From Hydractinia symbiolongicarpus (lineage: Eukaryota; Cnidaria; Hydrozoa; Anthoathecata; Hydractiniidae), in the NCBI RefSeq assembly GCF_029227915.1, contig NC_079877.1, positions 15,734,851-15,798,850 on the forward strand: 64,000 bases of DNA. The letters are read 5' to 3'. This document shows, piece after piece, positions 40,860 through 63,508 of the stretch. The notes beneath the pieces were generated by a model, which made no database searches, was not told the DNA's origin, and saw only the letters and a list, made by a program, of their open reading frames with translations. Position numbers and translations under genes: made by a program. How positions within the stretch are numbered: the first letter of the stretch is position 1; every line of letters begins with the position of its first letter.

Positions 40860-41375
40860 CGTTAAAAAGTGCCTAGATTTTATGGGACAACGTCAATGCA
40901 TCAGTAAAGCAATTACATTTTACTTCCAAGTGTAAGGCTTAATAACTCGAAAACGGGTGGAAATAATTGACGTCATGTCCTTCGTGGGTAAGTAGGGACC
41001 ACCTCAGACCATATCTGGACAAATTTCTGAACAATACTTCAATCCACTTGTTTCAGACTGGACGGGTTGATGATGACATTAAGAAATTGTTAAACCCCAA
41101 TGTCTCTGTAACCGTTCGTCAAAAACACATGACCCGATACATTTTCTTCATCAGCATTTCTAGCTCCGCACAATACGGGCAACGGGTTACTGAATTTCTA
41201 AACAAACTTTTTGTCAGTTTTTGCCTATGTAAGCGAACTTATATCTTCTATACTGCTAATTAAAACTATGTGATTCTATACTTGGGTCAGCATTTCCAGA
41301 TCTACGCAGTACAGGTAACAGCTAATGAAAAATTGCGAAAACAAATTTCTTTGTACATCAATGGGTCATTTTTAG
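40860..41375 (+). mobile_element. Helitron-family repeat copy
   Basis: Blocks 'aaggcttaataactcgaaaa' and 'cgggtggaaataattgacgt', then 'gtgggtaagtagggaccacc' and 'tacattttcttcatcagcat', match 2070-2330 in order. Both ends are worn: no hairpin plus CTRR was found. The open frame 40967-41263 lies inside the repeat and is not a gene. Confidence 0.65.
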
Positions 41376-41378
41376 CAT

Positions 41379-42350
41379 TTAAATTCTTAAGGCGAAATAA
41401 CTTGTAAACGGAGACGAAGGAGAGTCCATAACATGTTGCAATACAGCAGTAGGTTGCGAAACCTTAACCTCTCTACCCGTCAGTGGCGAAAATCCCATGT
41501 GTTCGGACATGCGAACCCTAAAATGGCGAATAGACTTGCCATAATAAGTGACATTGCAGTCACTACACGTAAACATATAAGCAAGTCCGGAGCATAGAAG
41601 TTTCGGAATGCAATGTTTAAATGAAAATAATTACTCAGGCACATATTAGAGGTAAATACTACTTTAAGTCTGCAATGAGGTAAAAACGAACTAAGTAGTT
41701 TAGATAATCCGGTCCGCATTTGTAAAGACACAGGCCCTAAAAATGGTAGCACAATACACATCTCTTTTTTAGGAACAGTGGTAACCTTTCTTTACGTTGA
41801 AACATGTTGTTGAGAAAGTTACGTATGCAGAAATCGACAACATTATCAGGGTAACCATTTTTCCGAAAAATGTTTTTAAGTTTGTCCACTTCGACATGAA
41901 ATAATTTAAAACTAGAGCTTAACCTCAAACTACGATACAATAAAGTAGAAATGAGACCATGTTTATATTGCATAGGAATAAAGCTAGTAAAATTGGTTCA
42001 AACACCACTAAATGGGGGTTTCCGATAAACATTAGTAACAAATCTGTTTTAATTTCTAGAAATGAAAACGTCTAAGAAAGAGAGTTTGTCATCTGCCTCT
42101 ACTTCATAAGTAAAAGAAATAGACTTATGGCAAGAATTTAAATAATCACAAAATGGTTGAATATCATATTTGGAATTAAACAAAACAATAATATCATTAA
42201 CGTAACATTTAGAATACTTGGGTTTGAATTCAACTGGACATTGGTTAAGCCAAATATTTTCATAGTGACACATGAACGCATTAGCTAGGGTTGGTCCCAA
42301 TGGTGATCCCATTGCAACACCATCAACTTGCTTGTAGAACGAGTCATTAA
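41379..42350 (-). pseudogene. Penelope-like retroelement relic, second copy
   Basis: Read leftwards from 42350: YKQVDGVAMGSPLGPTLANA (RT motif B), then CYVNDIIVLFNSKYD where YVDD has become YVND, then ISFTYEVEADDKLSFLDVFI. Next is a broken thumb (KLKNIFRKNGYPDNVVDFCI). Last is the GIY-YIG domain: MFTCSDCNVTYYGKSIRHFR, VRMSEHMG. The YVND change removes a catalytic Asp. Compared with the copy at 25.2 kb this belongs to a different lineage, closer to the group with MGSPLGPT and long linkers. Confidence 0.8.
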
Positions 42351-43679
42351 TTTAATTCTTAATTTTTATTTTATTTTATAACGGTATGAATTTGTATAAC
42401 GCAATGTCTGTGATCATGCTCGCATGAAGCGGGCGAAAGCTAACATAAAATTGTCGAAAAAAATACTCGTTTTTCTTCTTTCTTCAAGATACTTATGTTG
42501 TAACAATGATATATTCAAAATGGTAAATATTAGCCTCTGTTGGGAGAATTTGTTTACAATCAGAAGACTATTATTAAATGAAATACTGGGATTATAAATA
42601 GCCTTTCTTTGATTTTCTTCACAAAAGTCAGCTAATAATTAGGACTTGAAAGTTGCTAGTTATTAGTATTAGGATTTTTCTGTTACACACATGATATATA
42701 AAAAACTTGAGAAAGAAACTATAAAATTGATAACGTACTTGGCTCTAATAGCTGGTCTGTATTTTCTCAAATTCCGTCTGCAAAATATACCACCTGTTTT
42801 TTTTTCACCAAATAATAAATACAATACTTCATATATATACTCTATATAAATGGCATATAAGAAGCAAATCTCAGATTCTTTACCCACTGCAAAAATTACT
42901 TACCCCCGTCATAATGACTAATATTTTTCCAAACATTTTGTACATCTCCGTAATACCAGATAAAAGTTAGAAAAAGTCACGGAAGGGCAAGGAATATAAA
43001 GCATTCGAAAAAAAGTTACAGCACATTGAATATGCCGCGGGTCATTATGCCCCTCCCACCCCCCGGGCTTAATAGAGTTAACCGTTTTTTTGAAACCACA
43101 TGTTCTTTTATATACATTTTTATCAGCGTTTAAAGCAGTAGAGGCAACGGGTAAACAAAATTTAAAAAAATATTTTGTATCAAGGGTCCCTGCTCTGCAT
43201 TTTAAACGTGCTGATTACGTAAGGAAAATCTTAATGTAGGTTCTAAACTATTACTGAAGACGTTGTCTTGTTAGTTGCTGTTGTGACAATTTTACTCCGG
43301 ATATTTATTAACACAATTAATTTCTTTAAGACTGTTTACTATGTTACTTGTAAATTTTGCTCCAATGAAGAATGTTTCAGTCTTAGCGTTCATGTAATAT
43401 ATTTTAACTAATGAGAATTAAAAATTGTTTTTACTTAATTCGTTTTTTTGTCCTAAAAATGCTATGGTAGCTCGTCGTAGTGATGTTGTCACAACGTTGC
43501 AGCAAATTAGTTGGCGCATCGTAACACAACTTTGTCGCGATAATAATTCGCAACGTTTAGCAAAGTTGGTGGAATGTCACAGGTTCATGTTGTTGATACG
43601 TTGTAGCAATGTTGCTGTCCTTCTCGCGCTGTAGGCCTTTGCTTGTTGTGAGGAATGTTTTCTACCGCTTTTTCATGTT
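42351..43679. other. no gene seen; repeat scraps
   Basis: At 43110-43175 a fragment (atttttatcagcgtttaaag, gtagaggcaacgggtaaac) matches the Helitron-family interior near 2270-2330. At 43035-43080 a C-rich block followed by 'gagttaac' resembles an end of the TTAA-type element. Otherwise nothing recognised. Confidence 0.45.
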
Positions 43680-44247
43680 ATGAAATATATGATATGTATA
43701 ACAGTTGTATTTTTCCAAAGATTTTGTTTGGCATGTAACAAGACACTGACTACAATAAATTCAAGTTCAAGACAACCTTCCAAGATCTTTATAAAATCTA
43801 TCCTTACAAAATCAACTTGTATTTTTTTGCGAAAGATTAGTGGTTCTTATATTATTATTTACAGTTTCCACCGGAGATATTACTGCCACAAGTCAAAGTG
43901 TTGAAGAAGCAATAATTAACACTACTGTAGTAATGAAATGGCAAGTAACACCTGGGCGAAATCAAAAAGTTCTTTAATGTAAAAGTTTTCTTTAATGCTG
44001 TATGTTTTACCGGATTATGTAATGGTGATTGCAGGTAAACATTTGCCAACAGTAGCTGCAGAAGGTAAATCTTTATTTCAAGACAGATTAACCGCTACCT
44101 TCAATACAGCTGGTAAAAATGAATATATAGCAACTTTGGAAGGAATTCAGTTCAAAGACAATCACACATATCGGTTGATAGCCTTCTTTGACGATACAAT
44201 AAATATTGAAAGAAAACATGGTGATATTCAAATAAAAAAAGTTGTTG
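43680..44247 (+). pseudogene. Alr-like receptor: leader and V-set-like exons, frameshifted
   Basis: Exon 1, 43680-43734, encodes a signal peptide (MKYMICITVVFFQRFCLA) with a phase-1 donor. Exon 2, about 43865-44247, reads STGDITATSQSVEEAIINTT and VVMKWQVTPG, then loses frame around 43953 and again before 44010. It continues as KHLPTVAAEGKSLFQDRLTA, FNTAGKNEYIATLEGIQFKD and NHTYRLIAFFDD, and ends GDIQIKKVV at a phase-1 gtacgt donor. The order of strands (KWQV at strand C, DxxTYxL at strand F, terminal G strand) fits a V-set Ig domain. The two positions where Cys is normal are not Cys, which matches my memory of domain 1 in Hydractinia Alr proteins. The frame losses and stops make this exon non-functional as given. 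Confidence 0.6.
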
Positions 44248-44582
44248 GTACGTTCTGTTTTTCCGTGTTTATTTTTTATTGTTTATAAGTAGAGATAGCG
44301 GATCGCAAATCCGCACTAATAAAACAAAGCGAATTAAAACAAATGATATCTATAGCTATTCTGTACCATATCGAATTCGTTTTAAAGAACTGTCCATTGT
44401 GAAAACCCGGTGAAATCTCTTATTTAAACGAGTAAGAATTTCTCTTTATTAAATGTGCATGAGCATTGACAGTGGAAATATGGTAAAAACAAAACACCAC
44501 AGTGTAAACAGTTTATCTTACCCATCCACGATGTTTCACTCACCTGCGCATATGCAGCAGTGCAACAAAACAAAAACACCAC
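44248..44582. other. no gene seen
   Basis: Intron-like or intergenic sequence after the V-set-like exon. A small hairpin (gcggat..atccgc) lies near 44299-44314. Confidence 0.4.
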
Positions 44583-45164
44583 TTAACCCTATTCGGTCCG
44601 CGGGGGATGGATAACTCCTTATTGCTATATTATATGGCTTTGGTACTTACTGAATTTCAATATTTATCTATTAGACATCAGCATGTCAATTGTTTAGGTC
44701 CCATGCCTTTTAGGTGCTTTGATATTGGACATTGACTAAAACTATTCCTAAAAATATTTATGAAATCCTAACTAGAAATTAAAAAAAAGGTTGCGAAGCA
44801 TTTCGCAAGTTGCAAGCAAAATAAATCTTACCAATACTTTGTCCCTAGCGCTTCTCGTTTCTCTGGCGCTAACATCTCCCGAAATACATCAAATTTGAAT
44901 ATCATAGGGTAGAAGAACCCTGAGGACTAGGCAGGGAAATGAACGCTCTGCAGAATAATTCGTTGCACAAAAACAGTTTTTTTTTGCGAATAGACTGCGC
45001 GAGTTTTTGATGTGCCTGAGATATATCTTTTCAAAATGTGCGAGAAAATTAGATTACGCGAAACTAACAAAAACGAAAAACGCGTATTAAAATTTTGTAT
45101 GACCTTTTCCCACAAAATGATAACAGTAAAGAGCGCAATACAAAATTACACTTCTAGCAGTTTT

Positions 45165-45540
45165 CTGAAAGATATGTAATACATCGAATTGTACAACCCG
45201 CAGAAGTTGGTCTTAACGTTAACGATTTCGTAGATGACCTTACAAGAAAACAGTATTTTTCACGTAAAAGTACCGGTACTCTAGAAGCCATAGAATCTGC
45301 TGGAAAGAATTTTGAAACCTCACGGGAAACAATTAAAACAAAAACAAACAAATCAAAACAGTTTTTTAACTTTATCAAGATTTATTAAATAGCTTCAATT
45401 TTAGGCAGAAAAAACACTAACGGTTTCGTTTTCTTTTCACCACACGCATTGGAAGATTACATCACTCACTCCCATTGTACACAATCTAAAAGAAAAAGAA
45501 AACATTTTCATATAGTGAAGCTTCCAGTGCCTTCAAGGGA
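45165..45540 (+). other. coding-like fragment, unrecognised
   Basis: A plus frame without a start reads AEVGLNVNDFVDDLTRKQYF then SRKSTGTLEAIESAGKNFET up to a stop near 45388. A second piece reads NGFVFFSPHALEDYI. The amino-acid composition looks protein-like but I recognise no family. It lies in the segment inserted into the TTAA element, so it may be a scrap of another mobile element. Confidence 0.25.
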
Positions 45541-46219
45541 TGGCCAAGTCAATGGAATTAAAAGCGCTGTTTTTTATCTCGTAAGGCTAGTTCGGTAAAG
45601 TGTAAAAGAAAAAACTAAACAATTTGGCGACTTTACTAATATTAGATGCAAAGTTTCAACCATACCAACAGTTTGCAAATCTGACAAAACATTATAAAAG
45701 TTTTTTTTTTTTCAAGATTTAATTGATGCAAGGCCAGGGAAATTAATTAATTTATTGTCCTAGACACATTCCAAAACACATGCTTCTTATCTTTCCTTTT
45801 TTTTTTCAACCAACATTAATGCAATCACCCAGAGGAAATTATAATGTCTCTTGCCTGTGTTTTAGAAGCTAAGCACACAAATACAAAAATATTACAAGTG
45901 CTGAACTTTGGCAATCATATTTTTCAATCAGACCCTTTTGAAAACTATGCTGAATCATGTCAATTAGTAAACTCATCACTATAGAGTAGCACCTTGGATA
46001 AGATTCTTTGTTGGATGAATAAAATGACTGACAAATGGTTTATCGTAAATAAAATGTGGGTTGTTCTCAAACACACGTGGGCGGTGGACAGAAAACTGTG
46101 ATGTAAATTTTCTTCGTGTATTATTCTTGAGAATATTCTAAAATTACAAGCAGTTTCAAAAATGCCGACGACTTTTAAAGAACGTGTGCGGCTTGGGCAT
46201 CCTTGGAGTTCTGTTTAAC

Positions 46220-46676
46220 CGAGGGTGCCGACTCGACGGAAACGTCGCAAAAACCACGGGGGCTGTCGGACGACTTCCGGCGAATTAGAAAAAACTAATT
46301 TTCGCCCGGAGAAACCCGAATCAACCCGAAACAAAATTTTTTTAAACATTTATTTCCATGTTTCATTTATTCTTTTAACGTCAAGCAGTGGTAGTGAAAG
46401 ACTGTTTTTTATATCATTTATTCGCTAAATAAACTGTACGTACAACTACAAAATGGCACATTCCTTCTTCTCGACAAAATTTAAATGAGAACAATGAGCT
46501 CTCCCCACATTGCATTACGGGCGCAATTTGGGCACTTTTGTCCAAAAGTTCAAAGTCCAAAAGGGTCCAGTCTTTTCCGGGCGGTTACAGACGAAAACCC
46601 TGAAAAAAATACCCGAAAAAACGCTTGCGGTTGCCCTCACATATACATTGTTTTCGGCGAGTTGCCAACCCTCGTC
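46220..46676. mobile_element. MITE-like element with about 24-bp TIRs
   Basis: Left end about 46222 (gagggtgccgactcgacgga) and the reverse complement of the right end about 46675 (gagggttggcaactcgccga) match at most positions. About 455 bp, GC-richer than its surroundings, no transposase. The flanking target duplication is not clear. Confidence 0.5.
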
Positions 46677-47337
46677 TACTGAAATGACAGTTTTAATGTC
46701 GTTCTAAACCTTGTTCTCAGGGAGGGCGTACGGACAACTAATTCCTATTGAGTATTACATTGCTGTTGGTTTGATAGCAAAATAGGATATTTTCTTAATT
46801 ACTGTAACAGGTTACTTAATAAATAAAAAATTGTGATGAAAAACAGTTGGTTGGCCCACTCTAACACCCAAAGCTATTTGTTTTTTCTGCTGCCTACCAA
46901 CAGGTTTTGCTTTATCTGGCTATCAGTCAGGTAGTAATACACAGCTTCTCCACATGTATTTTACAAATTACGTTCAATTATTTTATACAAAACAGAGCTA
47001 AAAATCTCTATGAATTATCTTTAGAACTTGAAACTTATAACGCAACTTTGTTTCATCAAGAAGAATCATTTTGCTTGTTTTAGTCACGTAAGTAATCCAA
47101 TTTCCCAATTTTTTTGCGTTTTAACTGAAAATTGGAATAAACGGATTTTCGAATGACTTTTACTTAGCTTTCAAAAGCTTCAAACAGAACGCAAAAATGA
47201 ATTTTAAGCAGATAGTAGTATTTCAATGAATTTAAAGCTTTTGATGACGTCACAGAAAATGTGCTGACGCAAGCAAAAACTTATTGCTTCCATTTTGTTC
47301 CTTTTGTGACGTACTATATGTGTGCTAAGTTCGATTA

Positions 47338-47655
47338 CCGACTGATAGCCTTGTGGTAGAGCGTTCGCTTTCAGTGCGGGAGGTCTTGGGTTCAAACCCC
47401 GGCCGAGTCATGCCAGAGACTATAAAAGTGTAAATCTATCCTTTCTGCTTAGCGCTCAGCATGAGAATAGGATTGATATCTTAGGCGGTTGTCTAGTTGA
47501 GCGATTGCTGTGCTTCCACGACCTTCGTAGCTCAAATGGGAGCTTTAAATGCGCTAGGACCCCCTTCGCAGGACCCTCGTTGATAGCAGTACCAATAGGA
47601 ACTGAAGAGGCTATCCTGGGTAAATAAGAGTAATAATAATAATAATAATAATAAT
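47338..47655 (+). mobile_element. tRNA-derived SINE with (TAA)n tail
   Basis: The head at 47340-47410 is tRNA-like. It has an A-box-like segment (tagccttgtggtagagcg), an anticodon-arm region, and a B box with T-arm (tcttgggttcaaaccccgg) closing with gccgagtca. A body of about 220 bp with a conserved-looking middle (tcgtagctcaaatgggagct) runs to a tail of 'taataataataataataat'. It would be transcribed by RNA polymerase III and moved by LINE enzymes. It splits the TTAA element cleanly: 'aagttcgatt' on the left joins 'tcaattttgac' on the right, as in the uninterrupted copy. Confidence 0.8.
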
Positions 47656-47766
47656 AATTCAATTTTGACAATCCTATGAAAAGTTATTAAGGGGTGGGGG
47701 GGTCGGATTCCACCACTCCCCCCTGGTCATAATATGTTCGAAAAACCCCGGACCTAATAGGGTTAA

Positions 47767-48675
47767 GCCTTACCTTGATTTGGATAAAACCAATTAAAAT
47801 GGATAATATTGTTTTTACATCTTCTTAGAAACAATAAAATAAAACACAGCTCGGCGCGTTATAATTGTACAAATTACTTCAATCTTTCTGTAGAAAAGGT
47901 AGCTTACACAGGAGCTTTCCGTTCCAACTCAAATCTCCAGAAAAAGCACAGCAACAAAAAAGCTTAAAATATACAAGTAAAGTTGATTAGAAACAGGGCT
48001 AGCAATAAATTATTTCAAAATAAGAAAACAGTTGCAATAATATTATTTTTCATTAAAATACAGCTATAATAGTATTAAAAGCAAAATTGACAAATAATTT
48101 ATTTATTCAATGACTAGCTATAATACGAAGAACTAAGGCATATTTCAGGTCTGTAAAATATAGTGTCTAATATGCCGACTACCGTTTCTTGTTCACATTA
48201 TATTCCTCTCTGCGTGTTTCAGTTCGGCGGACGTTTAATTTGGACCAAAAGACGGGGAGAGGAGGGGGGGGGGTTAAAATCCGGGGTTCGAAATCCCCGG
48301 ACCGTTTAATGTTGCCAATTTCGTTCTCTTGTGATTAAACAATTTTTTTAAATTTAAATATGTACAAGCATTTAAAGCGTGAATGGACCGTCCGCGCTCA
48401 AAATTACGTCTTTTTTTAACTTAACGATCAAGCAGTGATATCAGGGGTTTTTTAAAAAACATCATTTAAAACATCATTTTATTGCTATAGTATTCAGTAA
48501 AATTTCTTACTCCGCTTACGCAGTAACAATTGACTATATTTTAAGACTAATATTTAAGTTAACAAACGAGTAAATTATGTCATATAACTGCTGGAATGGA
48601 AATACTATGGTTAAGAGGACAAATGATACAAAACCAGCATGAAGTCGATAATAAGATTATGTTACTTCACTGGTT
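47767..48675. other. no gene; diverged repeat shared with 51.5 kb
   Basis: Parts of 47880-48180 (caggtctgtaaaatatagtg, gagctttccgttccaactca) recur loosely at 51510-51720. A G-rich run with 'ggggttcgaaatccccgg' sits at 48258-48300. No coding signal. Confidence 0.4.
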
Positions 48676-48954
48676 TTGTATCCAGGAAGATGTTTTTTTT
48701 ACCTGTGCAAACAAAGTCACCCTTATTTCTGTTCAATCCACGTGAAATTGGCGCCAAGAAAACAGATCTATTTTTTCAAAAATGTTGATGTCCATGCAAT
48801 TAAACTTGGTACATGCTTAGAGATTTGCAGATGTGAGAGGCCAGAAAGACCATATGCTTGCTTGATTGTTGAGTTAAAAAAAGTAATTGAAGTAAAAAGA
48901 AATAAGCACGGACAGTCCATTTTAACCGAAAAGCAAAGAAATCGGTACAATTGA
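48676..48954 (+). other. open frame, unrecognised
   Basis: 93-codon frame with a better-looking C-terminal half: IYFFKNVDVHAIKLGTCLEI, then ACLIVELKKVIEVKRNKHGQ. It has beta-strand-like alternation but no motif I can assign. It could be an exon scrap of a mobile-element protein. A 13-bp hairpin (gatacaaaaccag / ctggttttgtatc) lies just upstream at 48625-48683. Confidence 0.25.
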
Positions 48955-51900
48955 TTTAAGAAAATAAGTCTGTGGCTTTGCTAAGAAACCTTTAGATAAA
49001 TTAGCGTGTAATTAACTCTTTATTCCAAATGTTGATGAAACTTGACCAGACACATATGCATATTCTACAAAACGATGTAAATAGAATTAACTCCTGGTAT
49101 TATACCATCATTTAATTTATCGTGGCCATTACTCTTTAAAAGATAACAGTTGTTGTCTCTAAAACAAACAGTTAATCAATCATACGACACTTACAGTTAG
49201 CCCTGATACATACACAACAGACAAAATATAGGATTACTTGAAACTTAGTTCTGCGAAAACGGCGAACTGATTCTCTAGCGTAATTTTTTTTTTAAGAAAT
49301 ACAATTTTGCTACACTAGAATTTAATTTCGAGGGGCCATCCAGATTCAGGAAAATTGTAAGAACTAATTAAGCAATTCAAACCACCTGCTCTGGTATATC
49401 TTATAAGAATTTCTAGGGAATGTGACAGGACTACGCGCTTTTTTATGTAAGAACAACTGTATAAGGACAGGACCCAAATATTTTCAGATGAATAGAAACA
49501 AAACTGTTTTTACAACTAACAACCTGAGACTGAAATTTTTTCAGAAAAAAAGAACAAACCAGAATCTAAATTTTCTTGTACTTCTTTTTTAACTATCGTA
49601 AAGTCTCATAAGTGAGAACAAAGTAGGACTGAATTCGGAAGTTGTGTAGGCATTAAAACAACGAAAGAACAAATCAGACGAAAAGGGGTGCAAAAAATTA
49701 TAAAACAAAATTTATCTTCAGGAAATTTTAATTGGGTGGGTTTCGAACATTTCTGAAAGCATTCTAACAGTACAAAACATTTAAAATTAACTTCCATTTT
49801 TTGTAAATAACAAACGTGATTTTGAATCCAATCTCTTAAATCTAAAAATTTACAAAATAATAATGACAACATCATATAAGGTTTAAATTGTTTGTTTAAT
49901 CACGTCTCGTACGTAGTTAAATTACATTCTTGTCTATACATTAAACTTCCAGCCTTCCGGGGTGTACCTACATGGCCTAAAAAAAACAAAAAAAACGTAA
50001 GAACCCATAAGAAAACGACAAAAACTATTTTAAAACATCATCCATGTTACAGGCATCATCACAGAGATATTTTACAAGTTACAACAATCCTTTTTATACA
50101 TGGATGTAAACACACAAGGTCTAGTGTCATTCTAATAAATATCAGTTTGTCTGACTTAATGCAAATAAAACAAGATGCAGGGGCTGCATAAACTATCTCG
50201 CATGTCAATGTCAATTGCACATCACTGCAACAATATATTTTTAATTTATTAACGGGGTCATTTTAAAAAACCTAAAAATTGATTTACAGCAGTTCCTGGC
50301 GTGAGGTATATGATGCATGGCTAAGATTCCTATGAAATCTCTATAATGGAGGAATTAATTAGGATTATTCTTAGAATTTAAAAGTCACAACACAACTTTA
50401 TTTCATTGAGAGGTATCATTTCCCCCAAAAAATTCTTAAAAACTTTTTTAGAATTCACAAGCTGTTAAATCGTCAAATTAAATATATTTACTCAAGGCGT
50501 GATGGCTCAGTTGGCTAACGCGTCGGGACGTGAACGCAGAGGTTGTGGGTTCGGACTCACTCGTTGGTAGTTTTTCTAACAAAAAAAGTAGTATGGGTGG
50601 CAAGTACCATTCTTCTTATAAATTCATTAATAAGTATGTTTGTAGGTTAGATATGTAAAGAAAATGATGAAGCCTGAATTTTTTACCTTTTAGAACAGAG
50701 ATATATATTTTTTTTTCACAGAGATATATATACATTTTTTTTTTTAAATAAATAAATACAATCTAAAAATTGTTACTTCAATACAAAAGCGTTTAACAAA
50801 CATAATAAACAAAATTTTTTTACCTTTTTAAGTATTTTTATATATGTCCAAACTTAATCTCCCAAAAACAATAATTACATTAACCGTCGCCGCCCTTATC
50901 GAACAAATGTTCACTTCACACGTCGTACATAGCTCACTTCTTGAAAAAATTATTGTGAGATTTGAATATTGAATAATTTAACAACATGCAAAAGTAGGTA
51001 AACAAAGTAAAAGTTCTACAAAAAGGCACCGTTTGATAAAATAGTTCAGATTAGGAACATATATCATTAAAAAGACGCTAGTAGCAACAGTACAAATGTT
51101 TTTTAACCACAAATGAGCAAATACCTTAAAGAATGAAGAGGTATATTTTCCCCTGTTAGTTTTGGATTTATTTCCACGATGCAACAAAAAAAGAAGCAAC
51201 TTGAGTTTTGGGAAATATTTAAAAATAGTATAATAAAATTTAAAAAGAAAGAGTTTTGTTAATACTTGTGGATTGAATTTTCTTCTTCTGATAGCTAGAT
51301 GTAGCTATCTAATGATTCCATTGAAGGATGACAGCAAAAAATATATTATCCATAGTGGCCTCAGGCACCAAAAAGTAATTTAGTTATCTAGCTACATCAA
51401 ATCAAGGAAAAAATGTAAAAATAACTTTTAAATAATCCATACCACAAACATGCCAATTCAAGTTGATAATTTGGTACGTTTAAATCTTCTTTTTAATGAC
51501 GCCAAAAATATAACACGTTTTTGCGCATTATAAATGTTCAAAATAATATAGTGTGCCTTCAAAGAAAAGGTACAAGCTTTCCAACTCAAAATATTAAGAG
51601 AAAAAACATGCCAGCTAAGCCATTTATTGTCAGCGCCTGGTATAAACTATGTATTTGCGTTAGGTCTGTAAAATACACGATAATTCAAATTAGCTGATAG
51701 CCGTTTTCTGATTGCTTGAGTGTACTTCCCAGTCTTTCCCTTGGGGCAAACGAAAAATCGAGAGGGGGTAGGTAAGACAGGGGTAGGTGGGTACAAAGCC
51801 AACTTATTGTCATTTTTAGCTGACTTTTATTACATCTGCTCGGTCTGAACTTATTTTTTTTAGTAGAGAGAAAAATAACCTACTCCTTTGTAAGAAAATA

Positions 51901-51980
51901 TCAGTCATATTTCCTTAATCTGATTTTATATGATTTTTTTTCAATCAAAATTTTAGGAATTTCAATAATTCCTTTGGTAT
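48955..51980. other. no gene; scattered repeat fragments
   Basis: A TTAA-element fragment (ctatgaaatctctataatgg to attgagaggtatcatt) lies at 50330-50420 and a tRNA-like segment at 50497-50570. The rest is AT-rich, with a diverged copy of the 47.9-48.2 kb sequence at 51.5-51.75 kb. No protein frame supported. Confidence 0.4.
50497..50570 (+). repeat. tRNA-like sequence (SINE head or tRNA pseudogene)
   Basis: A-box-like 'tggctcagttggctaacgcg' and T-arm 'gtgggttcggactcac' in tRNA order and spacing. The acceptor ends do not pair well, so it is more likely a SINE head or pseudogene than a working tRNA gene. Confidence 0.5.
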
Positions 51981-51984
51981 ACCT

Positions 51985-53830
51985 CGCGTCTAGCAAACAT
52001 GCTCCACAATTTCGCAATAATAACTTTACTGTCCTTCATTACTGCTGTTCTAATGTGGTGATTTTTCGGGAATAAATAGTAGCATAGCACGTAGTTATCT
52101 TCCAAGGATTAGCAATGCTGGACTCAGGTTCGTTGTGATATGAGGCGTGTTTATGTATGTGATTATTGTTTCGTTCAGTGCAGTTTTCTAGTGCTTTCCT
52201 TGTATAAGGGCGTTTCGAAATATTTTCCCAAATATTTTCATAAATGATTCAACATTTCCATTCCTTCGGGGCTATAACGGAGTTATTCGAGCATGTTTGC
52301 TTGTGAAGTAATGTTTTACTCGCGCGCTGTTATCGAAACGTATAGATACCGCGTAACCAAATATATTGAACAAACTTTCGAGTTTGTTGTCAACATTAGT
52401 TTCTGTTCTCAAATTCATTGATTCTACGGACGTGAATCGTGAGATAATTTATTACAAGTAATTTTAAGCCGTTACTTACTGGATCAAAAATATCAATAGA
52501 TATATCGACCCATGGTATATCTGGTAACTCTGAGTTGGCGGTTTGGTGGTTGTTTAATAGGAGTTGCTACTACTTGGCATGTGAGACAGTTTTTGATGCA
52601 GTTTTCTACATCAGCATCCATGCGGTACAAGTAACGTAAGTTCTTAAAAACTGTTTAGTTTTCACGAGCTCTTGATGGCTTTCATGTGCCACTTTTATAG
52701 CAATCTTTTGTAATGTGTGTGGCATGATTACGCGGTTAAATCGAAGAGAATTTCGTTATTTTAAGAAAATTTTGTTCTTAACTTTTCATATTTCTTGCAT
52801 TCGTTTGTAAAAATGACTGTGTGAATAAACTCCGTTAGTACTTGTAGTTCTCGATCTTTTCTAGTTTCGGTTCTCTTCTCTTCCAGGGTCATAGATAGTA
52901 ATGCGGCTGTCTCGCTGATAAAGTTGATGCAATTAGTTATATAGTTGGAGCTTTTCCTTTAACCCTGTTCCTGCTGGGCCTTTTAGGGGGTCCTCAATGC
53001 TGGGGGGGGGGCTGATTGGACCTCCCTCCCCCTGCGTAATTTCTACAATTGTTGTCCGTTGGATTTGAAACTTACCACAAGTGTTGTCCAGGTATTAATA
53101 AACAATTTGGTGAAAAAAATTGATGACGTTATCATTTTTTGGTGATGACGTCATAATATTTGGTGACATATAGAAAAAGAGCACTAACTTTGAATTTTGT
53201 TTATTGTTGTATAATTGCGATGAACTCAGTAACAATAATAATTGAAACACAAAATAATATAACAATATAAACTAAGAAGTGACATAAGCTTTTAAAAACA
53301 TGTAAAAACATTTTATAGGAAAAAAAATTTTTTTTAGAATTTTACTCAACATAAATAAAGTGCTGCCATTGCAACACTTCGGCATAATTCCCAAAAAATT
53401 TTTTGGAAAATAAAGCTAAATAAAAGTTGGGACAAGTCACCAAATTTGAAGGTATAATTATAAACACATAAAAAGTTATTAAAAAAAGTTTTGTCCGCAT
53501 AAAAACTGAATTTTTTTTATAATAGTCTCAGCGGTTTGGTTACTTTCGAATAATTTTCCATAAACTGCAATAGATAGGTGCAGATACCGAGAAATGCCAC
53601 AACTCTTTCTGGGTTTGGTGATACACTAAATTCGCTAACGATTACTTCGTAAAAGGGTAATTCTTGTTTTCCTATTATGCACTTTTTAGTATTAATTTAA
53701 ACCCGAGTTCTAAATGTTTGCTAAATAATTTTTCTAAATGTCTTTTGTGGTCAGTCATGTCTTTTAAAGAAACAAGTGTGTCATCGGCTATGCAGCCTTA
53801 TACTGGGAAGTTTCCAACTTTAGATTGTAG
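51985..53830 (-). pseudogene. Ty3/Gypsy pol relic
   Basis: Read leftwards. RT pieces at 53830-53500: IADDTLVSLKDMTDHKRHLE (YxDD strand worn to IADD), KLFSKHLELGFKL, then FSVSPNPERVVAFLGICTYL. An insertion follows (about 52.96-53.49 kb). Integrase at 52860-51985: VIMPHTLQKIAIKVAHESHQ, MDADVENCIKNCLTCQVVAT (zinc-binding arm), then core residues near RRNGNVESFMKIFGKIFRNA with the catalytic Glu helix, and TTNLSPALLILGR. Frames are broken repeatedly. Its RT and integrase are too worn for me to relate it to the 26-31 kb element. Confidence 0.75.
52960..53490. mobile_element. possible TTAA-type insertion inside Gypsy relic
   Basis: Begins with ttaaccctgttcctgctggg and a G-rich stretch, similar in style to the TTAA element ends at 44583 and 47766. 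It separates the RT and integrase parts of the Gypsy relic. The other end could not be fixed. Confidence 0.35.
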
Positions 53831-55255
53831 ACAATGCTAAATTATATTGCTCGCGTCGCTTATAAGCAGATATTCAGCTTGCGATATCAACAAAGCGAGA
53901 CTTAACCGCGCTTAATTTTCAGTTTTATCATTCACACTTGGAAGGGAATAGGATGACAAAAAAAAATCATTTTGTTTAACACAAACAGCAATTTTTCAAA
54001 CTCTAACAGACTAACACTTCAACAATTTTCTTGTTGTTATGAAACATTCGCGCTTCAGTTATTTGCAGCTCTCCATCTGATTGCTTATTTGTGTGTACTA
54101 CTATTGAGAACAATAAAAGAAGGAGTGCGATATAATAACATTTGATAACATTTTTAATTAATTAATTTTAACTCTCTATCTGATTGACTTGCATGTAATT
54201 TTATAAAGGAACTATTTATATAAACAAAATATTGTGCCGGAGAAACTGTCGAATATCTTGAGCAGAAATTCGATATCGGATATTTGCTGAGATATTCGAC
54301 TCTTGGCTAACGACTGCACGAATATCCAAAAATATTCTGTCAGATGCTCCCGCCTGAGGTGCATGATAATACTGTATATTAATCGTTTAAATCGAAATAT
54401 GCCGTTGTGTGTTATAAAGTTTGTAATTTTTCTCGAGGTTTCCGGATAGTGTTATTTGCGTGTATGCATCTTTAGATCAATTATTGAAAATATTTTGGCT
54501 TCTTCAGTTTCTTAGTTCGGTCGTTTATGGTTGGGAAATTTTTCGTATATTATTGCGCGGTTAATTTCTCTGGCATTTGGGTTACAACCACATTGGATAT
54601 CCATTCTTTAGAGGCTGTTCATATGATGATATAACTTTTACTTTCTGTTCATATGGCATGGGCGAGAAAACTTCTCTTCGGGTAGAAAAATACCATGTGA
54701 TAAGTTTCTATTGTTTATTTTGATAAGAATCTATTGTTGTATAAATTATGCCGAATCGACATCAATTTATCTCGCCTGCCGAGGAAACTTCTGTTCATAT
54801 GGAAAAATGCATTACTTGCCTTCCGAGATCTCGATCATGCGCACCCATCTCGGTAGGCGGGTAAATTTTTTTTCTCACATGAACGCAACTAGATTTTGTT
54901 AAAAGTTTGTTAACAACCCGAGATCTCTACTTGATATCATGCTGAAACATTTACCCGGTTCCCGAGGAAATATTTCCCATATGAAGCGAGTTTACACTTT
55001 CGATTACTTCATCAGCTTTGAGTTGTCTAAGTTTGTTAATGATGTTTTTGCGCAATGAGAAAGGTTGTTTTGTACTAATTTTTTGTCATACGGTGGTAGT
55101 AACACGAAGAAGTGATAGTTCCGCGGCCGCTGTCAGTTATATTAAATTTTTCCGAGACCACATACACCCGCTTCACTGTAAAATTTTTGTTGTTTTCAAA
55201 TAGTGTTTCGAAGTAGCCAATCATGCTCAAAGCCATATGCAAAAATGCGCCTATG
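53831..55255. other. no gene; palindromic MITE-like sequence
   Basis: At 54640-54995, alternating 'ttcatatgg', 'cgaggaaactt', 'ccgagatctcg' and 'ttcccatatgaa' phrases appear on both strands, suggesting a worn palindromic MITE. No gene elsewhere in the stretch. Confidence 0.35.
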
Positions 55256-55532
55256 CAGTGCCGTAACCACGAATTTCGTTTTTTTTGGGGGGGGCAGCCT
55301 AGTTTCAGTGTCTAAGGAGGCCCAACCATGGTTGGGGCCGACGGGCCAAGAAAATTTTTGAATTTTGAGTGCGCTAGATTGGCCTTTTTGAGAGTACTTT
55401 TTAAAGAAATTTAATCACTAGAAATCACGAAAATAAAGGAAAATACAGACAATTGCTCCAGTTTTCTGAGTTTTTTTTTTAAATCAGGGAATAAACGTTT
55501 ACATAAATTTCATGAACAAAAGACTAAAAATG

Positions 55533-57814
55533 TTATCTATTGTAATAGCCAAAAGTGTCTATTCTGCTTTGGTGTTTATCGATAAATTCATCTCCTATTT
55601 GAGTTAAATCCATTTTGTCAACGAAATCAGTATGAATATGGAGGACCATCAAATTGTTCAAACGTAAATTCGTGGTTGTTGATCTAAGGTACGTTTTGAC
55701 TCGTTTCAAAGCAGAAAATGATCTTTCGCTGATGGCGTTTGTGGACGGCATTACCAACAACAATTTCGCTATTTTGACAACTTCACTTAGAAGAGTTCTT
55801 TGAGATTGATCAAAACTTTCTAACAGCTTGATTAGATCGGTTACTTTGAATTTCTCTTTGTCGTAACCAAGGTTGGATGCGATGACTGGGAGTAGCGGTA
55901 TTTGGACTTTAGCAAGTGACTCGTTGATATCTCCTTCGTAGAAACGACAAACTGCTTTTAGATGACTTTCCCATTCCTGACAAGTGATCGATTTTAAAAG
56001 AACTTCCTGTAAATTGACGTATGTCTTGTAATCAGGTTAATCGAATCTTTGTTGGATGTAGTTAATAACTAGATCGAAAGTTTCAAAGTAAACGTGGCGA
56101 TAGTGATCTTTGGCAGTGTCATGAAAATGATATGTTCCAGGAGGGCCATCTGATACTTTGTTAAAATAATCTGGCATCTTTCTTTTTCGTGGGAGTTTAG
56201 GATCAGATACTCCGAGTTGTGATTTCCAGACAAGAACTCGCTCCCAAAATAGCTCAAACAATTCGTTGCTTCTGATCTTCTCTAACCCAGCTAAGACTTC
56301 CGACACCCGTTGCTGTCCCTCTACTGCCGAAATATCTCCTTGGAGAGACCTGCTAAGATTATCTGTATGTTTCAATAGGGTTTCACCAAGACAACAGCAG
56401 AAGACAAAATTAAAACTAGACATAACAGTCATTACTCCGTTGATTCTCGCTCTCATATCTGGAAGCTTAACATTCGATAATGACCATGTCCAAAGCTCCA
56501 TTAATTCCTTATGGTTTTCAAGAAAGGATTCAAGAACCTCACCTCGCACAGTCCATCGTGTAGGAGAAAACTCATGGACCGACTTGGATTCATTTCCTGT
56601 TGCTTCTCTGATATTCTTTAATTGTGTGTCTCTCTTTGGCGATTTTTTGACAAGTTTACATATTTCATAGGCAGTTCCAAACGCTTCTTTAAGTTCAGGG
56701 ATTTCTTTTATCACATCGCCAACAGCTAAATTCAAAGCATGTCCGTAACAGTGTGTGTACAAACATTTTTCATTCAACGATTTGATTTGGGTAGCAACTC
56801 CAGATCTGTGACCAGCCATGGATGCAGCTCCATCATAACATTGGCCGCGAGCATTTTCTAATTTCAAGTTCATTCGTAAAGAATATCTTTGATTATAAAA
56901 ACGATTTGGTCAGCACTAGTATCAGGTAGTGGATGGAGGCCAATGAACTCCTCGTGAGCCTGTAATTCATCATCAACCCACCGAATGCAAATGACAAGTT
57001 GTTCCGTATTTGAGACATCCCCTGTTTCATCTGCAAGGATTGTGAAAATCTCAGCTGACTGAATATTTTTTGCAATGTCACGTAAAATACTAAGTGCTTC
57101 GATTCGCAGCATTTCGTTTTGAATAGCCGGTGACGTGTAGTTTTGCTTTTTTGCAAGCCATGCACTCAGTTCCTTATCATCTTCACATCGGAGTAAAAGT
57201 AACTGGTGGAAGTTCGAATTCAACTCGCTGTGTGTTTCCTCATCCCAATTGCCTCGAAACGGAAGTGATTGTCGCCCTAGATATCGAACGCTTTGCAACA
57301 GTTTTAACAGCATTCGTCTATTCCTTTCCTTTGTGGCTGCAAGATTATCTACCATGATTTCACCAATGTCCTTTGATGTACCTGGCGCAGTAATCAGTCT
57401 TTCAGTGGCTTCTTTATGGGAGTCGCTACATTCGTGTTTAGAAAATCCTCTTCCAGATTCAAGCGCCTTTTTCCAATTTCGGTAGCCGGTTTCAGTAAAA
57501 ACTGTCTCTGCTTTTGTTGCAGAAATCATGCTTTTTCTAAGAGCACTGAGACAAGTAAAGCAGAAAGCAGCGTCTTTATTTTGGTCGTAATGTAACCAGA
57601 GGAACTTGTCAAACCATGTTGGGTTAAACAATCTTTGTTTCGAATCTTTACCAAACGTTGTTTTTGGAAAACTCAAAGAACGAGGTTGGTTCGGTTTAGA
57701 TGGATCACTCGTTGTTTCCTTAAAATTATTCTCCGGGTTTGTTGGTGCTGTCGTTGTAGGTGTCGTCGTTGTAGGTGTTGTTGTTGCTTCTTCGTTTGTT
57801 CGTCTGAAAAGCAA
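55533..57814 (-). pseudogene. hAT transposase (TTF-type zinc finger), two lesions
   Basis: The frame begins after an acceptor-like ttttcag (about 57805) with a Thr/Pro-rich N-terminus (EEATTTPTTTTPTTTAP). A TTF-type zinc finger follows (WFDKFLWLHYDQNKDAAFCF, TCLSALRKS, later GFSKHECSDSHKEA). The hAT RNase H-like core has FTILADETGDVSNTEQLVIC (first Asp), then GQCYDGAASMAGHRSGVATQ and CYGHALNLAVGDVIKE (second Asp region, domain entry). The C-terminal hAT dimerisation segment is MPSTNAISERSFSALKRVKT with the Glu-containing SERSFS motif. Two defects are seen: a one-base frame change near 56872 (ILYE stop, overlapping MNLKLENARG) and a single TAA at 56039-56037 after QQRFD, beyond which the same frame stays open to 55533. 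It would need a third-party transposase. Confidence 0.85.
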
Positions 57815-58079
57815 AACAAGTGTAAAGGTTGCTTGGATAACAGTTATGGGATGAATTAAAAAGCAGTGGTGGGGTTAACGAAGTATTTAAATATTTATTT
57901 ATTAATAAGTCACTTTCTTTTCAGGTCTAATGAGCCATTTTGTTAAATCACTTGTTTTCTTCGGCATTTTCACTCTGTTTCAAATTAGTCCGTTACTTTG
58001 TTAATTCTATATTCTTACATGTTTTTTTTTTTTTTTTTTTTTTTTTTTAAGTCAGTCCAACTCGTTCTCGTCTTCTCAC

Positions 58080-58190
58080 AACACTATTTTCAGAATGTAG
58101 TTTCCATCCAATTTCATCATCATTTCCATGCAGCAAACACTATCAGAATGTAGTTTCCATCCAATTTCATCATCATTTCCATGCAGCAAG
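58080..58190. repeat. 57-bp tandem duplication
   Basis: Two copies of 'tcagaatgtagtttccatcc' plus 'aatttcatcatcatttccat' follow each other without a gap inside the hAT 5' non-coding region. Confidence 0.85.
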
Positions 58191-58391
58191 TATTAGAGTT
58201 ACGCGTTTTAAATAAATAAAAGAGTGGAAATCGGTTATAAATCATTCTCAATAAGTGTTTAGTTTGTTTATATATAACAAATGGTCTTTAGACATAAGAC
58301 AAAACGTTTTTCTTAACTTGTCATAACCATCTTTAAAAAAATTATTGGGGGGGCCCGGGCCCCCCTGGCCCCCCCGGTGGTTACGACACTG

Positions 58392-60570
58392 GCTTATGTA
58401 TCGGTTTTTACGCTGTTCTTTTCTTTACTAAAGCACGAATACGTGTTCCTATCTATTATGTTATTCGGGCTACCGCTGTCGGAATTTTGGTTGAATTAAA
58501 GAGACAGAAAACCGTCCGTTAACGCCAAGCTGAGTGCTTAGTACAGGTAAAAGATTTCACACCTTTTTCAAAATAAAAGGTTAATCGCACCTTCAGTTTA
58601 ATGAAAACACAGGAAATACTTTACGACGTCCAGCTAAAATAATCACAACAAAATTTTATTTGTAAATTAATTTTATATGACAGAAATAGAAGATGTAGTT
58701 GCCTTATTGCATCCAGCATTATAATAATCATTAGGAAGTTTGTTGTAGCCAAATTGCATTTAGCTACTTTCAACTTTAGCCGGAGGTAGCGAAGAAGCTA
58801 TCTAGACAGCCACTGCTCCAACATATATATAAATATTGATATAATAAACCAAATAAAAATTTTGAAAAATAGAAAAAAATAAGGTTAACTGTACTGAAAA
58901 AGGTCCAAGTCAGACCTACAAACTTGGCACCATCACTTGAAAAAATGGCCTTCGTAGCATGTTTCCGGGTTTTTTTCAGGTTCTTTCGTGATTCTGAAAT
59001 TAAGCAGCGAGCAACCAAAATAAAATCGGACTCTGCGGGAATTTTCCAAAAAAAAGCTGAAGCGCAACTCTTTTGAACAGAAAACGGCTATTAATAAAGA
59101 GACTAGACGAGAGCCCCGAAGTGAAATAGGAGCTGCAAACTGTGTCACACATGGAGCGCTTCAGTAAAAGTATGCAGTTTGTCATAAATTGAGTATACGC
59201 ACACAACAAATTAGGGTTTAAAAAAGGGTTATCGCCACTTCGGTTTCAATAAATATACAAAAATTAGCCCGTTGTGATACCCAGGTTGAGCGTTTACACC
59301 ATTTTTCATATCTAAAAAGGAGGAGCACTTACGCTTTTCCAAAGAACTTTAATCACAACCTCCATTTAAATAAAAACGCAGGAAACAGTCTGTCGTTAAC
59401 ATTGAACGCTTAATACAGCGTACATTGCACACCTGGCCCAACACTAAACAATCACTCAGCAGTTTTAATTTGCAGAATAATTTTTCATAACAGAAATGTG
59501 TAGCTACCTCTAACTGCATGTAGCACAAGTTATTAACTAATAGTTTTGTTTTTGCCAAACAAAACTTTTCAACTTTTAATTTTTAGGACTTTAAGAGCTA
59601 CCTATATAGCAACAATCCTAATATAAAAATAAGAAATGCTGGTTTAGGATAAAATTCTCAAACTGAAAAAAAAACATAAGAGCAATAAAGCCAGCTATAT
59701 CTAACTATCTTGTTTTAGGATGCTCCTTCAACATCTACCTTTGTAACCAAAATCTTACGATTAGCGGATTAAGAGTTAAATGTGCCTTAGAAGCCTGATA
59801 TAATTACCTAAATATGTAAAAACACACAGAAAACAAATATTACTAAAATTAAAAGCTTCTTGAAGCCAAAAAGGTCAAACAAACCTAGAAACCTGACACT
59901 AAACACGACCACCTCTAAAGTCAAACTGGCCTTCGTTGCTCAGAGTCACATTCCTTGTCAGCATGTCGAGGTCGCGAAAATCTCGGACTGGTTTTTCAAA
60001 ATAACTAGGCGCCATGATTGATTGATGCACCCGGGAGATCAAAACAAAGGTAGTTAAAATATATCGCACTTGGGTATTTTGTGCGCATTTTAAAAATATA
60101 GCCATTATTACAGAGGCTATAGCGCGTGGATAATTCCACGGGGTAGCCCGTTCTTTCTTAATGCAAATCGTGTTTCTCGCTACTTGTAATACGATTTTGC
60201 GCATAGGAAGACAGACAACAGCAGGTATATTTACCGCAATTTACCCTCCCTTCCTTGCAGAGTATGTTTACAAAGTTCATATATTACAAATCCGAAAAGA
60301 TTTGCGGGAAACTCAATAGTAGCTAGAGGCACCAACTTAACATGTCGGCAATAATATCCGAAAAGATGTGAGAAAACAAGTCAAAAAAGTATTAAGTCAG
60401 GAGGATTAAATAGTATTAATCAAAAATCTGCTCTATAAATTGCAGATATTCTGGTCGGCAAAAAACTAATTTATCGTATGGTTAGAGTTTTCCACGCTCT
60501 GTGAATGGCCAATCTATAGGAAATATATGCTATATTATTACTTTTCACCAAAACACGTGTACAATTGTTA
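58392..60570. other. no gene; diverged internal duplication
   Basis: Segment 58490-59100 resembles 59340-59960 loosely: 'gaaaacacaggaaatacttt' against 'aaaaacgcaggaaacagtct', and 'aatggccttcgtagcatg' against 'actggccttcgttgctcag'. This suggests an old tandem duplication of about 0.8-1 kb. Open frames here are not conserved between the two copies. Confidence 0.4.
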
Positions 60571-60584
60571 CTTATTTTTCAATT

Positions 60585-60731
60585 CTATAGTGCAAAAAGC
60601 TGATATGAAAATAATACGTCGTATAAGTCGTCTGTCTGTCACGTAAAATGTTAACCGCATTAGCGAGACCCACAAAATGCGGTAAATAATCAACGACGAA
60701 CCCGTGGATGTATCCACGGGCTACCAACTGG
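60585..60731 (+). mobile_element. short Helitron-like element
   Basis: The 3' end has hairpin cccgtggatgtatccacggg, a short spacer and CTGG at 60728-60731, followed by T. Upstream, 'aataatacg' and 'gtctgtctgtcacg' resemble the 5' part of the Helitron at 1881. The 5' TC was not fixed; the total is about 150 bp. Confidence 0.6.
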
Positions 60732-61300
60732 TGATCACATATTATCTTGCAATAATTTTTTTTATTTACTGTTGAACTTCTATGCTCAGTTTGTATGAGA
60801 AACTAGTTATCGCATGTTCTTAAAAATATCGTCATGCTCTTTTATTTTTTTATTTCTCGTATAAAGCCTTGTAAAACATGTGAACGAAAACATAAAAATG
60901 AGAAGAATATTTTCGATTTTCTCGGCACTGTGCCATAACTACTACACAAAATAAATTCTATTCGAAGAAGCTTGGAAAATTGCAGTGAAGTAGACCAGTC
61001 CTGATTTGTTTAAGCTATGTTGGCAGCACAAATTAATACGTACCCTGGTATGTTTAATACTTGGCCGATTTATCACAATAACTCAATGTGTCATAATAAA
61101 AAAAAATTATTGTTGATCTTAGGACATGATTTTCTCAAGATGAACTTCATGTTATGACTATAAGTAATGAATGACTTTATTTATTTATTTTTAGGAGAAT
61201 AACCCAAATAATATAGCGTTAAAGAATCATGTTTACTACTGCCATTATTAAAATAGTCAATAGCAAGTATCCAGCATGACATTCATTTTATCTTTCATAG
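60732..61300. other. intron or upstream sequence of the receptor exons
   Basis: AT-rich, no repeat or gene recognised; ends in the tatctttcatag acceptor at 61289-61300. Confidence 0.4.
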
Positions 61301-63508
61301 GAAAACCAATGTTTTGTGGCAAAAAATTAGATCAAAATTATACTATAGTAGAGGGAGAAAGTTTAAATGTTAGGCAAGATGTTTGTGGACACCCGAAGCC
61401 TGTTGTTGATTTAAAGATAGGAAGCCGTAGCATTAGCTTATCGAGTTCTTCTAGCAAGAGTTATGCGACAACACAATACAATTATACCAATGTGTTAATA
61501 AAACGCAAGGATTGTGGCAGACACATGGTTTTTACTGCTGAAAATAAATTAGGAAGAATTAAAGACAATGCCGTGGTTGGTGTTTTATGTAAGTGTCAGA
61601 GAAAATTTATATATTCTTTCAATATATCATTTACTGATCCGTTTTTAAAACCTTTTTAGTTACACCGTCGACCGTATCAGTAAAATATTCATATCGCGAC
61701 AATAACAGTTGCATATGGGTATCATGGGACAGTGAGAACACTGGCAATTGTGCTGTTGAATATCATTTACAGTTTGAAAATATTAGAGATGTTTACAATA
61801 CCTACAAAAAGGATTACATTTACTGCCTCACGCCGAATGCTTCCAATGTCACTATTTGGGCTTCATATAAAGGAATCTCAGGCAAAAAGGTAATTGCTGA
61901 GATACAGCATGTACCGCCAACAACAGAAGTTGTAATACCAGAAAAGATTATCGTGCAAGGTAACGTTAATTTCATGTATGAACATATGACGCGTTGCCCT
62001 GTAGTTATGAAGCTCGCTCTATAATCAGAAGGATGTTTCGGTCCACAATGCGGCCATGTTTAATAAGTGTATTTACCCTAGCTATAGCCCAGCCCCTGTA
62101 CTATCTGAGGCAAATTGGTTGGGCAATTCCATGTAATGCCTAATGCATATATTGAAAACACAAAAACCACACTAATAACAGTAACTCTAACACTGAGTGG
62201 GTTTATCCTGTAAAATTTCGGAATAATAATGATAATAGTAATTGTGGAAAAACGGTTTTTAAGCAAAAATATGATTTTTTTTTAGAAGCGCAAACATGAA
62301 GAAGAACTTGTAATAAGAAATTTGCTGAAGAAAAAACACATTTTACTCTACTTATTGTCAGAAATAAATAAATAATTTTTTATTGGTGTAAGACATTTGA
62401 CATTTAGACTTATTAAAATATCATACCCAGCAGAGTATAAAAAATAGAAAAGAAGCTTTTGAAACACAAATAAACTAACTACTACGAATTAATAAAGTTG
62501 CTAAATGCATTGATAACATATTTCCTAGGTTATAGTAGATTTATTTTGTTTTATGAAAAATTAGATTTACTTTGGAATCTACTATACGCACACTAAGAGT
62601 ACTTTTTTTGCGGACAATGTAGGAACAGAATAAGTGATCTCGTACTAATAATATTCTTTATTTATTATGCAGATAAAAACCGATTCCCGAAAAAAATAAT
62701 CATTGCAGTGACTATCACACTGGCTGTATGTGTAATAATTAACATTACCACTTGCTTAATTCTGAAACGCAAAGGTTCGTACACCTTTCTTATCAGTTAT
62801 CTTGAATTAGGTTTCGAATTATTTAAAATTACGTCCACAAAAAATGAAAAAGAACTACTTAAATAGTATAATTTTATCCAAATCATGGTTTCCTCTGTCT
62901 AACTAAGCTAGAGTTTAACACCCACTTTTTTACGCTGCACCATAAACACGATAAGTTATTTAAGATTGACATTTTAACATCTGGGATGATGGTATAAGTG
63001 AGTTTTATAAAGAAAATGCTGACATTACGTTTCTCTCAATAATTAAATATTAAATATGATTTTCCTTCAAGTAAAAATAGAAATAGCATTTTCCATATTT
63101 TTATGACTTCAATTAATTTCCAAATGAAGAAAATAGAAGTTGTTGATGGGTGACGCAGTTTTTAAGTCGAGGTTGCTTCGCTATGACTTTTTGCTCACAA
63201 AATTTGTAAAGCAGTGTCCTTAAAATAACTTAGTTTTTATTTTCCTAATACATATTTTATTTGGTCTCTATTTAGGCAATATTTCCTCCAAAATTCACCA
63301 TCGAAAAAAGCAGTCCGTGGTCACAAGTAATATTGATAATTACGAAATTATAGAAAAACCCACATCCAATTATGCAGACCTGAACTTACACGGTGTGGAG
63401 ACAAGTTTGTATGCTGATTTGACAACAACTGCTGAAAGCACCAAACAAGGTAGAGGCATAGCTCCAGTCGATTTGCAGAGAGACGTCTATGAGAACGCCA
63501 AAATGTAG
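61301..63508 (+). CDS. Alr-like Ig/FN3 transmembrane receptor, 3' exons
   Basis: Four exons, each with AG acceptor and GT donor, all joined in phase 1. 61301-61588 is an I-set-like Ig domain (NYTIVEGESLNVRQDVCGHP, KDCGRHMVFTAENKLG). Strand B has Cys, strand C has no Trp, and the usual strand F Cys is absent, with a Cys instead at DCG. 61660-61959 is an FN3-like domain (CIWVSWDSENTGNCAVEYHL, ASNVTIWASYKG) with N-glycosylation sites. 62673-62774 is a transmembrane helix (IIIAVTITLAVCVIINITTC) with a KRK stop-transfer. 63276-63508 is a cytoplasmic tail with Tyr motifs YEII, YADL, YADL and YENA. YEII-x6-YADL and YADL-x9-YADL both fit ITAM spacing. No lesion in any exon. The layout matches Hydractinia Alr allorecognition receptors (cell-surface homophilic recognition). 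Leader and V-set exons may be those at 43.68 kb. Confidence 0.75.

Follow-up and report, generated by a model that had tools for sequence, protein, structure and literature searches.

An Alr-family paralogue of Hydractinia symbiolongicarpus with a predicted signalling tail and a frame-broken domain-1 exon

We analysed a 64,000-nucleotide stretch of chromosome 3 of the hydrozoan Hydractinia symbiolongicarpus (C3:15734851-15798850, the window) against the genome of this species (480.9 Mb in 76 contigs were searched; the HSymV2.0 assembly is given as 482.9 Mb, 84 sequences and 15 chromosomes in the available text of PMC10411563). Judged by sequence, the gene in the window is NCBI LOC130635943, a paralogue of the Alr family inside the chromosome 3 allorecognition complex (ARC). 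Many Alr-type exons surround it at this position, and it is named in the legend of a figure of the complex. According to the portion of the cell atlas paper at hand, the complex lies on chromosome 3, with 40 Alr or Alr-like genes spread across the chromosome (PMC11876637). Table 1 lists the features found. The four exons at 61301-63508 cover only the gene's 3′ part; the domain-1 exon sits 17 kb upstream of the exon at 61301.

Table 1. Features of LOC130635943 in the window
Feature	Position	Strand	Evidence
Candidate signal-peptide exon, MKYMICITVVFFQRFCLA, phase 1 out	43680-43734	+	scan; no homology support
Domain-1 (V-set type) exon, frame-broken	43865-44247	+	tblastn with P0001/P0002, sequence, frames
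Short tandem repeat at frame break	43965-43997	+	Tandem Repeats Finder: 1.9 copies, period 18, consensus unit 17 nt
17 kb phase-1 intron	44248-61300	+	P0002 runs from the exon ending at 44247 into the exon at 61301
Exon, Ig domain 2 (I-set-like)	61301-61588	+	open frame, splice sites; 76/95 residues as in P0001
Exon, extracellular spacer (ECS), FN3 fold (predicted)	61660-61959	+	open frame; structural comparison
Exon, transmembrane helix then KRK	62673-62774	+	hydropathy; 28/33 residues as in P0001
Exon, cytoplasmic tail and stop	63276-63508	+	70/76 residues as in P0001, all four tyrosines kept

All four 3′ exons have AG acceptors and the first three have GT donors. The internal exons, of 288, 300 and 102 nucleotides, are multiples of three and run from phase 1 to phase 1, the last exon of 233 bases closes with TAG at 63506-63508, and the spliced 3′ part contains no internal stop. 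The sequence thus agrees with the initial annotation of this DNA, which had proposed four phase-1 exons with these splice sites and open frames. Its description of them as lesion-free holds for these exons and fails for the gene as a whole, the upstream domain-1 exon being frame-broken. Joining of the exons by chance is ruled out, because a full-length homologue of 451 amino acids (P0001) has the same exons joined in the same way.

P0001 derives from contigs of at most 1626 bases and, since these are too short for the introns seen at LOC130635943, is most likely a complementary DNA; it is possible that it represents another allele or another species. It reads, in order, signal peptide, V-set domain, I-set-like domain, FN3, transmembrane helix and tail. 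Its identity to the window differs by part: 34% in domain 1 (27/80), 80% in the Ig domain (76/95), 89% in the spacer (88/99), 85% in the transmembrane part (28/33) and 92% in the tail (70/76), which is the best conserved. Alr proteins are known for this arrangement, in which domain 1 changes fast and the remainder is conserved. With 94 of 203 candidates scored, P0001 gave at least 102 exon-type matches in the genome, at least nine of them off chromosome 3; among these its domain 1 found no close match (best about 40%), and the window's own domain-1 exon is absent from the list.

The domain-1 exon measures 383 nucleotides between its AG acceptor and GT donor, which is not a multiple of three, and because of this length it is unable to lead from phase 1 to phase 1. 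In the entering frame it reads STGDITATSQSVEEAIINTTVVMKWQVTPGRNQKVL and then meets a TAA at 43975-43977. Its second part, 43995-44247, is open in a different frame, and a 10-nucleotide direct repeat with a spacing of 18 lies at the break. The NCBI model of LOC130635943 (P0002) uses this second part; its residues are read from 43995-44247, 61301-61588 and 61660-62021. Because it starts at the methionine at 43995, after the frame break, and overruns the donor site of the spacer, the model lacks a signal peptide, a transmembrane helix and a tail. The candidate signal-peptide exon is one of three obtained by scanning 25000-43864 for an ATG followed by a hydrophobic core and selected GT donors.

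Alr proteins are said, after the 2022 work of Huene et al. on what was reportedly a set of 41 genes, to consist of a signal peptide, a V-set-like domain 1, an I-set-like domain 2, an FN3-like spacer, a transmembrane part and a cytoplasmic tail. Of this plan, domain 2, spacer, transmembrane part and tail are open in the window, domain 1 is frame-broken and the signal peptide is present as a candidate. The division of the four exons into Ig-like, FN3-like, transmembrane and cytoplasmic parts, as first annotated, is borne out by hydropathy, by I-set matches in 13 of the 14 family proteins (E ≤ 1), by the structural model of P0001, which places the transmembrane helix at 347-373, and by the fold comparison of the spacer. 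By sequence the spacer gave weak matches throughout: the alpha-L-iduronidase C-terminal region at E 0.01, CRLF2_D1 in 3/13 proteins and fn3 in 1/13 at 0.066. The predicted FN3 fold is supported, and the matter settled in its favour, by the structural comparison, a re-alignment of Foldseek's top 1000 chains that amounts to less than a full search.

Membership of the Alr family is well supported by similarity. In BLASTP the NCBI model shows identities of 35% and 37% with two named Alr1 alleles over 260 and 280 positions, with E values of 9e-46 and 2e-53, and P0001 is 38% identical to one Alr1 allele over 290 positions (E 7e-59). This similarity to named Alr1 alleles and the place in the chromosome 3 Alr cluster support the label Alr-like given at the outset. 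The protein-database searches listed few family members (4 to 11 per search, query included), and none of those listed bears the name Alr2. A tree built from 13 of the 14 proteins (the short and divergent P0014 was left out) pairs LOC130635943 and P0001 at 100/100 on a long stem away from Alr1. Support at the deeper forks is weak (87/88), and the program warned of long branches, among them a possibly false grouping of P0013 with this pair. We also considered whether LOC130635943 could be Alr1 itself. This is ruled out by an ectodomain identity of 37%, by a different tail and by another locus, LOC130635932, which matches Alr1 D9ZHU1 at 95% identity from end to end, tail included. On sequence grounds LOC130635943 is thus an Alr-family paralogue of the immunoglobulin superfamily (IgSF), and not Alr1.

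The tail carries four tyrosines, with codons at 63341 (YEII), 63371 (YADL), 63410 (YADL) and 63488 (YENA), exactly where and as the initial annotation had put them. They give the patterns YEII-x6-YADL and YADL-x9-YADL, two sites of the type of the immunoreceptor tyrosine-based inhibition motif (ITIM), SNYADL and SLYADL, and YENA, all of which are present as proposed. The proposal of two overlapping immunoreceptor tyrosine-based activation motifs (ITAMs) stands in part. Classical ITAM spacing is x6-8, and the rule YxxI/L-x6-8-YxxI/L fits the first and second tyrosines (Y1-Y2), YEIIEKPTSNYADL, as a canonical x6 motif; the x9 spacing of Y2-Y3 falls outside the classical range, fits only a looser x6-12 rule and is the usual spacing of the family. 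When the 80-residue tail was shuffled 100,000 times, 1.5% of the shuffles contained a Yxx[ILV]-x6-8-Yxx[ILV] pair, 0.13% contained at least two pairs at x6-12, 0.09% showed both of these features, and 2.5% had at least two ITIM-like sites. Since shuffles yield these patterns at such rates, the motif by itself carries modest weight, and conservation is better evidence.

A tail unique to LOC130635943 is ruled out: counting its own locus, 26 places in the genome match the tail at E ≤ 0.01, of which 12 lie on chromosome 3 and 14 elsewhere (8/26 with an internal stop). Among 27 genomic tails (these 26 and L039, with near-identical copies and stop-carrying tails included), the Y1-Y2 distance is 10 residues in 20 and the Y2-Y3 distance 13 in 22, and most have a serine at −2 of Y2 and Y3. 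At the third position after Y1, isoleucine or leucine occurs in LOC130635943 only; L031, L033 and L034 have valine and the rest mostly threonine. From this comparison the x9 pair is a family pattern and, because no other of the 27 tails has I or L at that position, the canonical x6 ITAM is a feature of the LOC130635943 locus. The homologue P0001 has YKII-x6-YADL. The fourth tyrosine that most paralogues possess is missing from LOC130635943.

Among the closest known systems are five short-tail Alr paralogues, four of them on the chromosome 3 contig: LOC130635934, LOC130635939, LOC130635937, LOC130636868 and LOC130647443 (P0004, P0005, P0008, P0009 and P0010). They share with LOC130635943 the domain order, where complete, and the tail plan Y-x9-YAD[ILV]-x12-Y[AE]DL, with distances of 10 and 13. 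They differ in keeping the fourth tyrosine (YAEI or YYEI) and in ending with YANI, YSNI or YANT, whereas LOC130635943 lacks that tyrosine and ends with YENA. All five have threonine where LOC130635943 has the isoleucine that creates its canonical x6 ITAM; in LOC130635934 and LOC130635939 the canonical pair is found at Y4-Y5.

About 10 kb downstream of LOC130635943, at C3:15808350 (L031), an Alr tail exon with YETV, YTDL, YADL and YAEI probably belongs to a further Alr paralogue. Four others (L051-L054, at C2:35084001-35094000, C7:32130001-32140000, C7:22586001-22596000 and C2:36554001-36564000) hold a piece of an Alr tail exon with a shared in-frame TAA within long multicopy stretches. Identity is 99.6% over 8.9 kb between the two C7 copies and 93-97% in the longest pieces of the C2 copies; L052 has frames resembling, by eye, reverse transcriptase. 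From their sequence, these tail exons seem to be carried outside the complex by mobile DNA. A second dispersed group on three contigs (L047, L048 and L049, at C13:24.64 Mb, C16:0.22 Mb and C10:7.00 Mb) has an open Alr tail frame with the third tyrosine changed to N, in pieces mostly 95-98% identical over kilobases.

Vertebrate ITAM and ITIM receptors (FcR, KIR, CEACAM) combine an IgSF ectodomain and a transmembrane helix with paired YxxL/I tail motifs. LOC130635943 shares these elements with them, a likeness in plan for which we claim no orthology. The Botryllus fester co-receptors (FcoR) are likewise IgSF receptors of an invertebrate allorecognition locus with ITIM/hemITAM tails; they differ in having variable-type Ig, sushi and two C2-type Ig domains, in a chordate host, and the review describing them calls the receptors of these allorecognition systems unrelated, in the passages available (PMC12065747). 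Within Hydractinia, the Alr1 ectodomain is homologous (35-37% identical; D9ZHU1, D9ZHT4) and its locus, LOC130635932, lies on the same chromosome contig. Its tail is longer (155-158 residues), with YAMR, YVTD, YSEL, YAEM, YAPV and YAPI, and a scan found no ITAM or ITIM pattern in it.

We think it probable that LOC130635943 is an Alr paralogue whose intact allele would encode a single-pass surface receptor with a signalling tail. By analogy with the families named above, such a receptor would sit on the epithelial surface, where its fast-changing V-set domain would touch a partner on the adjacent cell. Contact would cluster the receptor, a Src-family kinase would phosphorylate the tail, and the phosphorylated tyrosines would dock SH2 proteins, domains of which the genome has 60 matches. 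A Syk-type tandem-SH2 kinase would bind Y1-Y2 as a canonical ITAM, SH2 phosphatases would bind the ITIM-like sites Y2 and Y3, and YENA would be a Grb2-type site. The role of self/non-self receptor that the initial annotation proposed is putative for this paralogue, as is that of a polymorphic homophilic allodeterminant, a trait that marks the Alr family.

Several observations weigh against this reading. With its domain-1 exon broken and a signal-peptide exon that is only a candidate, the haplotype may yield no receptor, and the NCBI model ends within the predicted intron after the ECS exon, with neither transmembrane helix nor tail. For the window protein alone, Pfam returned nothing above its cut-off (I-set at E 0.12 fell under it), a phmmer search of the PDB found no match, and the structural model of domain 2 was too poor for use. 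Moreover, ITAM and ITIM motifs are not needed for the proven allodeterminant, since the canonical Alr1 tail is without these patterns. Because of the frame break the assembled haplotype probably does not make the full receptor; its allele is probably null in this respect unless the broken exon is skipped, which the phase-1 design would allow.

The same frame break raises the possibility that the gene is a pseudogene, either in this haplotype or species-wide, with the later exons a young relic and signalling lost. For the assembled allele this account overlaps with the receptor reading, from which it departs if no intact allele exists. An NCBI model without signal peptide, transmembrane helix or tail is in keeping with it, as are the 44 Alr-like gene models suggested as pseudogenes in the earlier reference assembly, according to the available part of PMC11067881. 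Set against this, the four later exons have open frames and GT-AG splice sites, P0001 has all parts intact, the tail is the part best conserved, and the legend of Fig. 5B of the cell atlas presents a 'UMAP expression plot of LOC130635943, an Alr1 gene', from clone 291-10 (PMC11876637). We regard a pseudogene as quite possible, though short of probable. At face value the plot would mean that LOC130635943 is transcribed in those cells; the reads may derive from the other haplotype. The wording of this legend is discrepant, because by sequence LOC130635943 is not Alr1 and it is LOC130635932 that matches Alr1. Either the legend uses 'Alr1 gene' in a broad sense or the marker shown there is a paralogue.

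The reported expression and the phase 1 to phase 1 exons would also suit a receptor without domain 1, made by splicing a signal-peptide exon, such as the candidate at 43680-43734, directly to 61301 to give an in-frame Ig-FN3-transmembrane-ITAM protein that no longer reads allotype. Against it stand the candidate status of that exon and the NCBI model, in which the second part of domain 1 is retained; we consider this outcome decidedly unlikely. Its furthest extension, that the assembled haplotype expresses such a receptor, with the ITAM tail kept, as the actual marker of the published 'Alr1+' epidermal cells, strikes us as a long shot; if true, this would be a signalling receptor blind to allotype, and carrying or lacking it would itself be a haplotype difference. 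A different doubt concerns the tyrosines themselves, which may be endocytic or adhesion-scaffold signals (YxxPhi sorting, adaptor docking) instead of ITAM/ITIM sites. YEII and both YADL motifs fit YxxPhi, and the family pair, spaced x9, does not fit the classical ITAM, but the tyrosine spacing kept across the family and the serine found two residues ahead of Y2 and Y3 in most tails argue for ITAM/ITIM signalling, and we find the sorting or scaffold account rather unlikely.

Three open stretches within the 17 kb intron (55533-57874, − strand) make up a hAT transposase remnant (hAT dimerisation domain at E 2.9e-7, DUF4371 at E 8.1e-14). Long frames at 22487-23755 (−), 26353-30690 (−) and 34079-37841 (+) resemble, by eye, a DDE transposase, a Gag/Pol-type element and LINE reverse transcriptases, and a frame at 6845-7342 (+) resembles, again by eye, part of a protein kinase domain.

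Published work already describes ITAM and ITIM motifs for Hydractinia Alr genes, as stated in the available portion of the review PMC12065747, which cites Huene et al. 2022. A literature search on the name LOC130635943 found it in one paper only, and the available text of PMC11876637, PMC11067881, PMC11999971, PMC13119343, PMC10411563, PMC12065747 and PMC9486129 gives no description of its tail or frame break. The Alr family and its ITAM/ITIM tails are known, with LOC130635943 as a worked example; to this the present analysis adds a gene model, the frame break in domain 1, a canonical ITAM specific to this locus and a question of labelling. Of use to specialists are a corrected model of LOC130635943, with its transmembrane helix, ITAM tail, far-upstream V-set exon and frame break, and the evidence that the 'Alr1 gene' locus of the atlas is a paralogue distinct from Alr1. 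The family also offers a natural contrast on one conserved tyrosine frame, with a canonical ITAM at Y1-Y2 in LOC130635943 versus Y4-Y5 in LOC130635934 and LOC130635939, which makes the question of activation versus inhibition testable.
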